58,758 bases of DNA from Alphaproteobacteria bacterium (lineage in GTDB: Bacteria > Pseudomonadota > Alphaproteobacteria > Micropepsales > Micropepsaceae), in contig SHWE01000007.1 of assembly GCA_009693985.1 (NCBI GenBank), positions 1 to 58,758 of the forward strand, written 5' to 3'. This document shows, in pieces, positions 30,041-56,836 of the stretch; position 1 is the stretch's first letter, and each line of letters begins with the position of its first letter. Under the pieces are notes generated by a model. The model saw only the letters and a program-made list of their open reading frames with translations, searched no databases and was not told the origin of the DNA. The position numbers and the translations under genes are program-made.

Positions 30041-30202
30041 GGCGGGTACTACTCCGCGCGTCAGGAAAGCGATACCCAGGGGCCTTAATGGTACTCATCG
30101 GGAGCTGTCCCTGGCCGGGGCCGTGGTCCCGGACATATGGCGCCCACCTGCAACTGCAGGCCCGTGAGGATCCATGTTCCAACGGCGATAGTGGTCCCGC
30201 CC
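30041..30202 (+). ncRNA. ssrS: 6S RNA (SsrS), alphaproteobacterial type
   Basis: This is an intergenic segment of about 162 nt between zapA and the 5-FCL gene. The ends can close a stem (GGCGGG 30041-30046 with CCCGCC 30196-30201, continued by TACTAC opposite GTGGT). The interior can form a long, bulged hairpin with an open central region, and it contains GGCGCCCACCTG and CCCGTGAGGATCC-like segments that I associate with alphaproteobacterial 6S RNAs. 6S RNA mimics an open promoter and sequesters the housekeeping RNA polymerase holoenzyme in stationary phase. Boundaries are approximate and the secondary structure was drawn by eye. A T-run at 30222-30227 may mark the end of the primary transcript. 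Confidence 0.82.
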
Positions 30203-51185: not shown

Positions 51186-52481
51186 TCAGCGGTCCACGAA
51201 AGGATCGCGCACCAGGATCGTGTCTTCGCGCTCGGGGCTGGTGGAGAGCAGCGCCACCGGCGCGCCGATCAGTTCCTCGACGCGGCGGATATATTTGATC
51301 GCTGTGGCCGGCAAATCCACCCAGCTCCGCGCCCCGCGAGTCGATTCCTTCCAGCCTTCGATGGATTCGTAGATCGGAATGCAGCGCGCCTGTTCGGTCG
51401 CATCGGCAGGCAGGAAATCGATCTCACGGCCGTCGAGTCGGTATCCGGTGCACAGATTGATCGTCTTGAAACCGTCGAGCACGTCGAGCTTGGTCAGCGC
51501 GATGCCGTCGATGCCGCCGGTAATGACGGTCTGACGCACCAGCACCGCATCGAACCAGCCGCAGCGGCGCTTTCGCCCCGTCACCGTGCCGAATTCCGCG
51601 CCGACCTTGCCGATGCGCTCGCCGATTTCATCGGTGAGTTCGGTGGGGAAGGGGCCTTCGCCGACGCGCGTCGTATAGGCCTTGGCGATGCCGAGGACGA
51701 AGCCGATATCGCGCGGGCCGCAGCCCGATCCCGCCGCCGCTTGCCCCGCCACCGTGTTCGACGAGGTGACATAGGGATAGGTACCGTGATCGATGTCGAG
51801 CAGAACCGCCTGCGCGCCTTCGAACAGGATGCGCTTGCCCTGGCGGCGCACCTCGTCGAGCCGGCGCCACGCCGAGCCGGCGAAAGGCAGAATTTTCGGC
51901 GCGACCTCCTTGAGCAAGGCCAACAATTCCGCGCCGTCGAGTTCGGGAAGATTGCTCCCCCGCCGCAGCGTGTTGTGATGCGCCAGCAGCCGTTCGATTT
52001 TCTGCGGCAGGCTGACGAAATCCTTCAGGTCCACGACGCGCAAAGCGCGCCGCCCGACCTTGTCCTCGTAAGCGGGCCCGATGCCGCGCTTGGTGGTGCC
52101 GAGCGCCTGCACGCTGTTAGACGATTCACGCGCCACATCGAGCTCGCGATGCAAGGGAAGGATCAGCACCGCATTTTCGGCGACGATGAGATTGTCGGGC
52201 GTCACCGCCACGCCGAGCGCGCGCACGCGCGCGATCTCGTCGAGGAACGCCCACGGATCGACGACGACGCCGTTGCCGATGATCGCGAGCTTGCCGGGCC
52301 GCACCACGCCGGACGGCAGCAGCGATAGCTTATAGGTGACGCCGTCGATGACGAGCGTGTGGCCGGCATTGTGGCCGCCCTGGAAGCGCACCACGACGTC
52401 GGCGCGCGCCGACAGCCAGTCGACGATCTTGCCCTTGCCTTCGTCGCCCCATTGGGCGCCGATCACCGCAACATTGGCCAT
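51186..52481 (-). CDS. purA: Adenylosuccinate synthetase
   Basis: The 431-residue enzyme makes adenylosuccinate from IMP, aspartate and GTP. It begins [20 protein letters not shown] (P-loop plus catalytic Asp) and has [13 protein letters not shown], the IMP loop [40 protein letters not shown], and [16 protein letters not shown]. It is the last gene of the serC-sseB-serA-purA run, 32 bp after serA. Confidence 0.97.
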
Positions 52482-52513: not shown

Positions 52514-54103
52514 TTAAAAGCGAAGCGCTTTCGCCTGCTTGACCAGAGGCAATTTGCGGATCTGGTCGAGCACCGCATCGGGCACCGGCTCATCCACCTG
52601 CACCAGCGCGATGGCGTCGGCGCCTGGCGCGCTGCGTCCCAAATTGAAATTCGCGATATTGACGCCCGCCTCGCCCAGCAACATGCCGAAGCGGCCGATG
52701 AAGCCCGGCTTGTCCTCGTTCGTGACATAGAGCATGTGCGGCGCGATTTCGGCTTCCATATCGATGTTCTTGACCTGGATCAGCCGGGGCCTGCCGTCGG
52801 AGAACACTGTGCCCGCGACCCCGCGAATCATGTCCGGCGTCGTGATCGAGAGCTTGATGTAGCCTTCATAGGCGCCTTCCTGGTCGCGGCGCACTTCGGA
52901 AATACGGATGCCGCGTTCCTTGGCGATCAGCGGCGCGTTGACCATGTTCACTTCGGAAAGCGCCGGCTTGAGCAGGCCGCAGAGGGCAGCCTGGGTCAGC
53001 GCGCGCGTGTTCAGCGCGGCAGCGCTTCCTTCATAGACGATCTCGACGGCGAGGATGCTGGTGTCGGTGAGCTGACCGGCAAAGGCGCCGAGCTTTTCCG
53101 CGAGCTGGATCCAGGGCCGCACCTTTTGCGCTTCCGCGCCCGAGATGGAAGGCATGTTGAGCGCGTTCGTCACCGCGCCGGAGAGGAGATAATCCGAAAT
53201 CTGCTCCGCCACCTGAAGCGCGACGTTCTCCTGTGCTTCGATCGTCGAAGCGCCGAGATGCGGTGTCGCCACCACGCGCTCATTGCCGAACAGCGGATTG
53301 GCGTTGGCCGGCTCCTCCACGAAAACGTCGAAGGCGGCGCCCGCGAGCTGGCCGGAATCGAGCGCGGCCTTCACGGCGGCCTCATCGACGAGTCCACCGC
53401 GCGCGCAATTGATGAGGCGCGCGCCCTTCTTCATCTTGGCGATGGAGGCGGCGGAAATGATGTTTTTGGTCTCGGCCGTCAGCGGCGTATGCAGCGAAAT
53501 AAAATCGGCGCGCGCGAAAAGCTCGTCGAGTTCGAGTTTCTCCAGCCCAAGATCGGCGGCGCGTTCGGGGCTGAGATAGGGATCGTAGGCGGCGACGCGC
53601 ATCTTGAGGCCCCTGGCGCGGTCGGCCACGATGGACCCGATATTGCCGCAGCCGATCAGGCCGAGCGTCTTGCCGGAGAGCTCGACGCCGAGGAAGCGGT
53701 TCTTCTCCCATTTGCCGGCATGGGTGGAGGCGTTGGCGGCGGGAATGTCGCGCGCCAGCGCCATCATCAGCGCGATGGCGTGTTCGGCGGTGGTGATGGA
53801 ATTGCCGAACGGCGTGTTCATCACGATGATGCCGGCCGCCGTCGCCGCCGGAATGTCGACATTGTCGACGCCGATGCCGGCGCGTCCGATGACTTTCATC
53901 TTCTTGGCGGCGCGCAGCACCTCCGCCGTCACCTTGGTGGCCGAGCGGATGGCGAGCCCGTCATAATCGCCGATGATCTTCAGGAGCTCGTCCTTGGAGA
54001 GGCCGGGTTTGGCATCGGCGTCCACGCCGCGCTCCTTGAAGATGGCGAGGGCGGCGGGCGACAATTTGTCGGCAATGAGGACTCGAGGGTTGGCGTCGGT
54101 CAT
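52514..54103 (-). CDS. serA: D-3-phosphoglycerate dehydrogenase
   Basis: The 529-residue long-form (type I) enzyme begins the serine pathway. It has an N-terminal substrate/NAD core with [20 protein letters not shown], catalytic His region [19 protein letters not shown], an intervening ASB domain ([20 protein letters not shown]) and a C-terminal ACT domain ([20 protein letters not shown]) that usually mediates serine feedback. It starts 4 bp after the sseB stop. Confidence 0.97.
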
Positions 54104-54107
54104 GGCG

Positions 54108-54854
54108 TCAGTTCTTGCTCTCGCTTGCGTAGAACGGGGGTGTTTCCAGAAGCGCGCGCGCGACGCCTTCCGGATTGGCGCGGTTGAGCGGCATCATGTC
54201 GACCACGGTGCCGGCATTGGCGGCTTTCAGCACATTGCCGATTTCCTTGGACACGCCGGGCCAATCGTCGGCGACTTCGACTCCGATCAGAGGATGCGGA
54301 TAATCGTTGTCGTTGTACGAGATGGTGAGGAGATGGGCGGCCAACACGTTCGGGTTTCGCGCGAACATCGTCTTGAGCGCCTTCACCAGCACATGCGGAT
54401 AGGGCGACGGGTGGCTGAGCTTTACGCGCGTTCCTTCCTCAGGCACGGCGCCTTCCGTGGGCAGCGGCGGGTTGAGGAGGTAGTCGATCTCGTCGGGCAT
54501 TAAGGGCTTGCCGAGCTCGTCGCCCGCATTGAGCATGAAATGCGCGCCTTTCGTGGCCAGGAACAATTGGCGCGCCGGAATCCGAAAATACGATGCGGGC
54601 TCGCCGGCGAACGTCTCCAGCCGTTTCATCGACGTGAAGATCAGATGATAGGAATGACCGTCATGCTCGATGCCGGCGAGACGAAGCTGGGCGCCCGGTG
54701 GAATCCCTTCCTGTTTCGTCCCGGCCGCATCGACGACATCGCCGATGACGAAGAGCTCCGCTTCCATCAGCAGGCGATAGAATTCGGGCCGTGCGTCTTC
54801 CTCGGTCTGCGCCCGCAGAAGCGCGCGTTCGAGATCGTTTTCGGGAGAACTCAT
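54108..54854 (-). CDS. sseB: SseB-family protein (enhanced serine sensitivity)
   Basis: The 248-residue protein has an N-terminal SseB domain ([29 protein letters not shown]) and the SseB C-terminal domain ([20 protein letters not shown], then [11 protein letters not shown]-like residues here as [17 protein letters not shown]). Its start overlaps the serC stop by 4 bp and it ends 4 bp before serA. Placement between two serine-synthesis genes is striking because E. coli SseB was named for a serine-sensitivity phenotype. The molecular role is unknown. Confidence 0.85.
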
Positions 54855-56011
54855 GGCGCGGCTTTCGTTTGCGCGAAGGCCCAATCGAGCCAGGGCGTCA
54901 GCGCTTCGATTTCGGCGGTCTCGACGGTGGCGCCGCACCAGATGCGCAGGCCCGGCGGCGCCGCACGGTAGCCGCCAATGTCGAAGGCGACGCCTTCCTT
55001 TTCGAGAATGTTGGCGATCTTCGCCGCCGCCGCTGCGGCCTGGTCCTTGTCGAGCGCGGTGAACCAGGGATCGACGATCTTCAGGCACACGCTGGTGTTG
55101 GAACGCGTCTTCTCGTCGGTAGCGAGGAAGTCCACCCATTCGGTCTTCTTCACCCAGGCTGCCAGCGCCGCCAGATTGGCGTCGGCACGCGCGATCAGTT
55201 TGGTGAGGCCGCCGATGTTTTCTGCCCATTTCAGCGCGTCGAGATAATCTTCGACCGCCAGCATCGACGGCGTGTTGATGGTGGCGCCCTCGAAAATCCC
55301 TTCGTCGAGCTTTTTGTCCTTGGTCATGCGGAAAAGTTTCGGCATCGGCCAGGCGGGTTCATAGGATTGCAGGCGGGCGACCGCGCGCGGGGAAAGCACC
55401 AGCATGCCGTGCGCGCCTTCGCTGCCCAGCGCCTTCTGCCAGGAGAAGGTGGCGACATCGAGCTTGGGCCAATCCAATCTTTGCGCGAAGGCCGCCGAGG
55501 TGGCGTCGCAAATGGTCAGGCCTTCGCGATCCGCTGCGATCCAATCGCCATTGGGCACGCGCACGCCCGAGGTCGTGCCGTTCCACAGAAAGACGATGTC
55601 GTGCGCCGGGTTCGCCTGTTTGAGATCGGGCAGCGCGCCATAACCGGCCTTGATGATGCGGGTATCTTTCAGCTTCAGCTGTTTCGCCACATCGGCAACC
55701 CAATCCTCGCCGAAGCTTTCCCAGGCGAGGATATCGACGGGACGCGGCCCCAGCAGCGACCACAGCGCCATCTCGACGGCGCCGGTGTCGGAGCCCGCGA
55801 CGATGCCGATGCGATAATTCGCCGGCACGCCCAGCACGGAGCGCGTGCGGTCGATCGCTTCCTTGAGTTTGGCTTTGCCGGGCTTGGAGCGGTGCGAACG
55901 CCCCAGCACCGCATCGCTTAAGACTTCGCGCGTCCAACCCGGCCGTTTGGCGCAGGGTCCGGACGAAAAAAAAGGCCGTGCGGGGCGCACGGCCGGCCTA
56001 TTCCCGGTCAT
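54851..56011 (-). CDS. serC: Phosphoserine transaminase
   Basis: The 386-residue class V aminotransferase is of the Methanosarcina-type subgroup common in alphaproteobacteria. It starts [14 protein letters not shown] with the substrate-binding [14 protein letters not shown], then [31 protein letters not shown], and the PLP Lys in [16 protein letters not shown]. It converts 3-phosphohydroxypyruvate and glutamate to phosphoserine. It is the first gene of the operon and is preceded by a structured leader and a promoter-like pair. Confidence 0.95.
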
Positions 56012-56060
56012 GTTTCATTCCTTCCAGAATGACAGCGCTCCGTTGGGGGAGCGTGGCCCG
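56012..56060 (-). ncRNA. serC leader RNA (serC motif-like)
   Basis: Two consecutive hairpins lie immediately upstream of the serC ATG on the minus strand. One is CGCTCC/GGAGCG (56036-56053). The other is TCATTC/GAATGA (56015-56032), whose loop and 3' arm contain the ribosome site GGAAGGA. The layout corresponds to the serC RNA motif described by comparative genomics upstream of alphaproteobacterial serC. Sequestration of the ribosome site suggests translational control of serine synthesis. The ligand or trigger is not known. Confidence 0.75.
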
Positions 56061-56066
56061 GGGCGT

Positions 56067-56095
56067 CTTTAGCTTTTTTGGCCCGCCCGCGTCAA
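56067..56095 (-). promoter_or_regulatory. Candidate serC promoter
   Basis: TTGACG, 17 bases, then CTAAAG on the minus strand would start transcription near 56060, which is exactly where the serC leader hairpins begin. The -35 box overlaps the stop codon of the upstream disrupted gene. Confidence 0.55.
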
Positions 56096-56713
56096 CCGCG
56101 CGGGGGCAAAAAGCTAAATAACCAATCCTTGTCAGACTGTTTCTTGAGTAGATCTCTTACTCCCGCCTTGACGCGCTTTCCCTTCCGATGCGCTTCGCAT
56201 GAGCCCACAATCCATAAGAAGTGATCTATCTCTCTTACCGAAGACCGAATCGAGTTTGCAGTCTGAAACCGGTCGAAATTCGAACAGAAATTCAAATAAC
56301 GCGCAGTTCCATCTTCGAGAGGCACATATTTCTTTCCAAGCAAGAATACGAGAGCTTCGCGGGCTCGAGAGTCGTAAATAGGTAGATTTTGATCGATAAA
56401 GAAATGACAGTATTTCGATGCAAAACTTGTTTCCATGCGTTTGCATGCGGAAGCGATTTTATCGACGAGAAGGCGATCGCGTCGCGTCGATTTCAGGACA
56501 ATTGACATCTGAAGCGCCGTGTCAGGCAGGTCACGAACATTCGTAGAATAAAAATAGTTGATCATCGTGCTTTTTAGAATGCACGAAGTCTGATCGTGCT
56601 CAGGGAAAATTTTTCCCTAATTCACGCATCGCATTATTGACCATGGCCCAATCGGCTACGGCGTCGTGGAGTTGGCAAATGCGCTTGATCGATGCGGTTG
56701 TCAGTTTTTTCAT
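56092..56713 (-). pseudogene. Low-GC hypothetical gene, frameshifted
   Basis: An ATG at 56713 with GGAGG 7 bases upstream opens a 37-codon frame (MKKLTTASIKRICQLHDAVA through ELGKNFP) that stops at 56600-56602. A +1 shift at the A5T4C3 run continues in another frame (EHDQTSCILKST, then the 157-codon frame from ATG 56565: MINYFYSTNVRDLPDTALQM, FASKYCHFFIDQNLPIYDSR, VREIDHFLWIVGS). Joined, they make one protein of about 206 residues that resembles a widespread family of unknown function with the K-Y-C-x-H-x(n)-IYDS core. The stretch is clearly AT-richer than all neighbours, pointing to transfer. It could be truly broken, a sequencing slip, or rescued by frameshifting at CCC-TGA. Confidence 0.72.
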
Positions 56714-56771: not shown

Positions 56772-56809
56772 ACCATGTCATGGCCCGCTGTTGCGGGCCA
56801 TGACATGGT
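56772..56809. repeat. Perfect 38-bp palindrome, related to the three-hairpin repeat
   Basis: The two 17-base arms ACCATGTCATGGCCCGC and GCGGGCCATGACATGGT match perfectly around TGTT. The core TGGCCCGCTGTTGCGGGCCA is identical to the last hairpin of the repeats at 21491 and 30835. It lies between the frameshifted gene and the PhzF gene. Confidence 0.88.
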
Positions 56810-56836
56810 AATTAGCGAAATCGAGAACGCCTTAAT

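Follow-up and report, generated by a model that had tools for sequence, protein, structure and literature searches.

The serC locus and its leader

The window, that is, the whole stretch of 58,758 nucleotides analysed here, comes from an alphaproteobacterium of the family Micropepsaceae and carries four closely spaced genes, all on the minus strand. The first is serC (54851..56011), encoding phosphoserine transaminase (TIGR01365, 665 bits), which is followed by an SseB-like gene (54108..54851, start approximate), by serA for phosphoglycerate dehydrogenase (PGDH; 52514..54103) and by purA for adenylosuccinate synthase (51186..52481). The SseB-like protein matches Pfam SseB and SseB_C above cut-off, and its score against NCBIfam SseB is 112.5 bits, below the cut-off of 295; in E. 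coli, SseB owes its name to serine sensitivity. A preliminary description of this DNA had suggested that the operon adds sseB and serA, and that one leader may govern the whole serine pathway plus purA. The presence of serC, the SseB-like gene, serA and purA agrees with it, but the operon is not the whole serine pathway, because serB, the last gene of that pathway, is absent from it and is carried by a different contig of this genome (G000:C36). Among 16 genomes checked, SseB stands between serC and serA in two, including one of the window's family (G004), and no such gene is found there in the other 14, while purA adjoins serA in five. Upstream of serC, an ORF of 157 aa on the minus strand (56092-56565) has no Pfam or NCBIfam match, and its end overlaps the serC −35 element. 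In addition, a long and perfect-looking inverted repeat (accatgtcatggcccgc / gcgggccatgacatggt) lies at about 56774-56811, between the upstream ORF and the next gene.

In a scan of the window with Rfam at the gathering cut-offs, two matches were obtained in all: a 6S RNA at 30043-30201 on the plus strand (61.1 bits, cut-off 46.4), and the serC leader RF00517 at 56063-56011 on the minus strand, which covers the model at full length (positions 1-52) and scores 49.3 bits, the cut-off being 35. The serC RNA motif named in the preliminary description is thus confirmed by the covariance model. According to the Rfam alignment, the leader (56011..56063) is composed of hairpin 1 (56036..56053), with a 6-bp stem that varies among leaders, the loop CCCAAC and −9.7 kcal/mol, and of hairpin 2 (56015..56032), which is capped by the GNRA loop GGAA and, as had been claimed, contains the ribosome site GGAAGGA. 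With two hairpins, the second bearing the GNRA loop and the ribosome site, and with serC and serA downstream on the same strand, the window leader is a genuine, ordinary and previously described member of RF00517.

Of 385 genomes sampled evenly across the class, 115 are matched by RF00517 at E ≤ 0.001, and in 111 of these the match is above the cut-off. In the window's family (Micropepsaceae), a leader match is present in 84 of 96 genomes; as for the 12 others, eight have no serC at E ≤ 1e-30 and are mostly incomplete, one has a serC cut by the contig edge, and three have a serC without leader.

Most of the leader features, namely the serC family itself, the start at its 5′ end and the ribosome site in hairpin 2, were already published in 2005. 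According to Corbino et al. 2005 (PMC1273637), putative starts lie immediately 5′ of all examples, the ribosome site is hidden by the last hairpin, and serine, threonine, PLP and B6 vitamers showed no direct binding. The leader of the window resembles that described there in its two hairpins, in the start directly upstream, in the GNRA-capped hairpin 2 with the ribosome site and in its place before serC-serA in Alphaproteobacteria; it differs in that SseB is inserted between serC and serA, with purA after them, and in that the window's family adds a predicted intrinsic terminator in the first serC codons. The same motif serves as a worked example among orphan riboswitch candidates in PMC7266159, which credits Greenlee et al. 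2018 with added conserved sequence and structure; in the available part of that article the ligand is not known and a terminator is not mentioned. Both Corbino et al. and the preliminary description read the leader as acting on translation only, with the ribosome site sequestered in hairpin 2; any early serC hairpin would then be irrelevant to regulation. The class-wide conservation of hairpin 2 and its GNRA loop speaks for this reading, which is weighed below against the evidence from the serC codons.

The RNA start and the 5′ domain

The leaders were compared in a set of 129, made up of 111 Rfam matches at the cut-off, seven matches of a masked covariance model, three weak Rfam matches and eight found with a pattern demanding GGG and CCC, which are not blind to these two motifs; a weak Rfam match with no serC beside it (L154) and marginal masked-model matches away from serC were left out. 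In the window, the −35 element TTGACG (56090..56095, minus strand) is separated by 17 nt from a weak −10-like element CTAAAG (56067..56072), both as given in the preliminary description. A generic E. coli sigma-70 scan does not list the serC promoter, because CTAAAG is a poor version of TATAAT. In the comparison, TTGAC begins 35, 36 or 37 nt upstream of the first G of the invariant 5′ GGG (56057..56059 in the window) in 64 + 41 + 5 = 110 of 129 leaders, whereas elsewhere between −200 and +100 it is scattered, with at most two of the 129 leaders per position. The base 5′ of GGG is C in 89 leaders and T in 40, so that it is a pyrimidine in 129/129; in all 111 leaders above the cut-off, GGG occupies model positions 5-7 and is preceded by C or T. 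From the TTGAC spacing and the pyrimidine-GGG, +1 is predicted to be the first G, 56059, which is well supported by this comparison and is one base away from the start of 56060 proposed before.

It has been reported from deep sequencing of S. meliloti that a 143-nt mRNA-leader RNA overlaps RF00517 by 34% of its length. In S. meliloti Ak57, RF00517 matches 52 nt. Since 34% of 143 nt is 48 or 49 nt, the 5′ end would fall on the first G or on the base just upstream of it, provided that strain 1021 has a 52-nt match as well and that the RNA enters it at model position 4 or 5. A truncated 5′ end in the binding construct of Corbino et al. was considered as a complication. In S. meliloti, GGG begins exactly at −46, so that GGG was probably still present in their −46 construct from A. 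tumefaciens. Slippage like that at pyrG was considered for the 5′ GGG as well, and is unsupported, with C at +4 in only 85 of 129 leaders. At pyrG, slippage takes place on a 5′ GGG.

The 5′ GGG may pair with the CCC in the loop of hairpin 1 (56045-56047), and this pairing may give rise to an H-type pseudoknot with a 3-bp stem and a linker of 3 nt besides the 6-bp stem 1. A covariance model was built from the sequence downstream of GGG, with the loop CCC masked, and was searched over the same 385 genomes; it found serC-adjacent leader loci in 118 genomes, seven of them missed by Rfam, and GGG and the loop CCC are present in 118/118. A compensatory change between GGG and CCC was looked for in these 118 loci and none was found, both motifs being invariant. 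Since they never vary, the pseudoknot is kept here as a candidate structure. Stem 1, on the other hand, varies in sequence among the 129 leaders with pairing kept at nearly all of its six positions. Just outside it, positions 10 and 29 are A-C in 117 of 129 leaders, G-U in five, G-C in five, U-C in one and A-G in one, the last being a row in which the stem is bulged or misaligned (L031). U29 occurs only with G10 (P about 1e-6, relatedness ignored; rows with G10 stem from weak Rfam matches or the pattern search), which is suggestive of an extra A+.C or G.U wobble pair closing stem 1. PreQ1-I and SAM-II are small H-type pseudoknot riboswitches, and the serC leader may resemble them in a 5′ pseudoknot of GGG with the loop CCC followed by a 6-bp stem; it differs from them in that no ligand is known for it and its proposed pairing is invariant.

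In addition, some divergent serC leaders lie below or outside the Rfam cut-off and are missed by the Rfam model (L168, L169, L171, L176, L193, L194, L199 and L165, and likewise L151-L153). In these leaders, the domain of GGG, stem and CCC is kept and the second part is different. A kept 5′ domain joined to a hairpin 2 of other sequence or form suggests that the 5′ domain is sensor-like and that the output part can change.

A predicted terminator under selection in the first serC codons

A pattern scan of the coding strand found GGCCGTGCGCCCCGCACGGCC followed by T8 at 55994-55966, that is, within the first 16 codons of serC. The G+C-rich stem-loop (55974..55994, minus strand) has 9 bp and −17.1 kcal/mol and extends from +66 to +86 of the predicted transcript; the U8 tract after it (55966..55973, +87 to +94) is written by a Pro codon CCT, two Phe codons TTT and the T of a Ser codon. 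The element begins 17 nt past the first base (A) of the serC start codon and occupies codons 6-15. The window has 119 ORFs of 150 aa or more, counting spurious ones, and serC alone has a score of at least 20 in its first 100 nt. The preliminary description had suggested that there is no terminator-antiterminator, and this is contradicted by so strong a terminator-like element, kept in the family beyond the needs of the protein as described in the following.

In the family, 85 leader matches were available, 74 of which were fetched; one with Ns in the hairpin (L268) and one at a contig end (L291) were dropped, leaving 72 leader-bearing serC genes. T8 is present in 61 of these 72, and a perfect 8-9-bp stem in 60 of those 61, the 72 genes belonging to related genomes and not being 72 independent events. 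One could suppose that hairpin and U tract simply follow, as a by-product, from codon bias and from the conserved peptide R-P-x-x-R-P-x-x-P-F-F-S-S-G. In fact, CGG and CCG codons are self-complementary, so that this peptide favours short hairpins, and the null rate for the window's protein is about 6%. The null consisted of 300 synonymous shuffles per gene, with codon counts taken from the rest of the gene, and a stem-loop with a T tract was scored in the first codons. With a threshold of 17, picked after the scores were known, 63 of 68 further family genes reach at least this score, where 5.8 would be expected. Among the genes of the class sample, the score is at least 17 in 15/110 canonical ones against 0.93 expected and in 1/6 masked-model ones against 0.03; when the window's family is taken out, 12/115 remain against 0.63 expected. 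Mean scores agree with the threshold counts (4.03 against 0.45, and 22.5 against 3.0). L090, L148 and the eight pattern-found rows were left out of the shuffle test, and six of 129 genes, in which no start was parsed, were left out of the early-hairpin survey of leader-bearing genes.

The codons themselves point in the same direction. The Phe codons of the U tract are TTT in 61/61 and 69/72 family genes, although TTC is about four times commoner in the rest of those genes (TTT:TTC = 102:399; third-position G+C about 0.81), and 63/72 use CCT for the Pro just ahead of the two Phe. Silent sites of the stem are compatible with pairing, with C or T opposite G in 67 and 63 of 72 genes and A or G opposite U in 69 of 72, whereas a silent site in the loop uses all four bases (T 30, C 29, G 8, A 5). 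In L239, a stem pair is kept via changes on both sides and the T tract is weaker. Several other families carry different hairpins at the same serC position. Taken with the 63 of 68 genes against 5.8 expected, these observations make the by-product explanation very improbable. A codon ramp avoiding structure near the start codon also fits poorly, because such a ramp would not make a hairpin of −17 kcal/mol. The predicted terminator in the serC genes of the family is thus under selection beyond coding: a stem rich in G+C, with a U tract behind it, is kept beyond chance. This selected intrinsic terminator in the first serC codons is the new part, the leader itself being known; in the open-access literature, to which most subscription journals do not belong, neither a published serC terminator nor the same layout was found.

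As to its spread, a terminator of score 17 is missing in 103 of 119 leader-bearing genes of the class. It does not belong to the ancestral mechanism, because most leader-bearing genes of the class are without it; to judge from these comparisons, it is a lineage-specific addition, nearly fixed in the window's family and scattered elsewhere, its spread over the families of the class being judged from genome handles. An example outside the family is Chelatococcus asaccharovorans (L339). The same 103 of 119 scored genes argue for control at translation only, as does the class-wide hairpin 2. Against it stands the family's retention of the terminator beyond coding needs, and the translation-only reading is accordingly regarded as possible though unlikely. 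L190 and L203, which are leaderless serC genes of another family, have an early hairpin and T tract of their own and a GGAAGGATA-like ribosome site.

Possible coupling of the leader to the terminator

Whether the terminator goes together with the leader can be seen in the three family serC genes that have no leader within 300 nt. T8 is found in none of them, against 61 of 72 with a leader (Fisher P 0.005, relatedness ignored, and three cases are few); one of the three keeps a 9-bp stem with ATTTTTCT and reaches a score of 21, and the other two score 14 and 0. For the class, 60 upstream regions of the higher-scoring serC matches listed were used as a leaderless control; eight were moved to the leader set and 52 were left. 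A score of at least 17 is reached in 16/119 genes with a leader and in 2/52 without, the latter among the matches listed (Fisher P 0.10), an association weaker than that in the family, and these 2/52 are a slight excess over the 0.27 expected by chance.

In the model proposed here, the RF00517 leader and the in-gene terminator would together form a leader-gated attenuator of serC-sseB-serA-purA, and the chances of this model being right or wrong appear evenly balanced. The mRNA would begin with pppGGG at 56059, followed by the 5′ domain of hairpin 1, perhaps an H-type pseudoknot, by hairpin 2 with the Shine-Dalgarno (SD) sequence, and then by serC. With hairpin 2 closed, a ribosome would not be loaded, the terminator hairpin would form and RNA polymerase would stop near +94, so that serC-sseB-serA-purA would be silenced. 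When a signal opens hairpin 2, the first ribosome would enter codons 6-13, the hairpin would be blocked and the operon would be transcribed. Termination in vivo, its gating by the ribosome and the control of that ribosome by the leader are what we infer; the layout and the absence of T8 in the three leaderless relatives suggest that read-through is set by leader-controlled ribosome loading. A more specific form of the model, in which a 5′-terminal pseudoknot beginning at the first transcribed base controls the SD hairpin, and the first codons of serC are recoded as a terminator that only a loaded ribosome overrides, is put forward tentatively and is somewhat improbable as a whole.

RNA polymerase travels only about 40 nt between uncovering the ribosome site and reaching the U tract, which is probably a short time for ribosome loading and counts against leader-gated attenuation. 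So do the stem kept in one leaderless family gene and the slight excess among the leaderless genes of the class. With this distance, many transcripts might stop regardless, as would be expected if the element were a constitutive attenuator with a fixed read-through fraction and the leader regulated something else, for example mRNA stability via a structured 5′ end. However, T8 tracks the leader in the family, few as the three leaderless genes are, and a constitutive attenuator is judged improbable.

The nearest experimental parallel found for leader-gated attenuation, though in the opposite sense, seems to be duf1127 of S. meliloti. According to PMC12218461, this gene is subject to translation-gated attenuation via an upstream ORF and Rho. 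The likeness would be that, in an alphaproteobacterium, ribosome occupancy of first codons decides whether transcription continues. At duf1127, however, a separate upstream ORF is used, the stop is Rho-dependent and absence of the ribosome relieves it, whereas in serC of the window the gene's own codons form a predicted intrinsic terminator, and absence of the ribosome should cause the stop.

For the serC motif, an orphan candidate since 2005, the in-gene terminator would give a simple read-out for ligand or protein screening, namely an RNA of roughly 94 nt against the full-length message. If the leader-gated model is true, silent changes in the controlled gene would have converted a translation-level switch into a transcription-level one; if its two-level form is true, the serC start region would be the antiterminator, and the orphan motif could be read in a transcription-termination assay. 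Stalling at the codons of Ser16-Ser17 as a serine sensor was also considered and was rejected, because these codons are still inside RNA polymerase when the U tract is reached.
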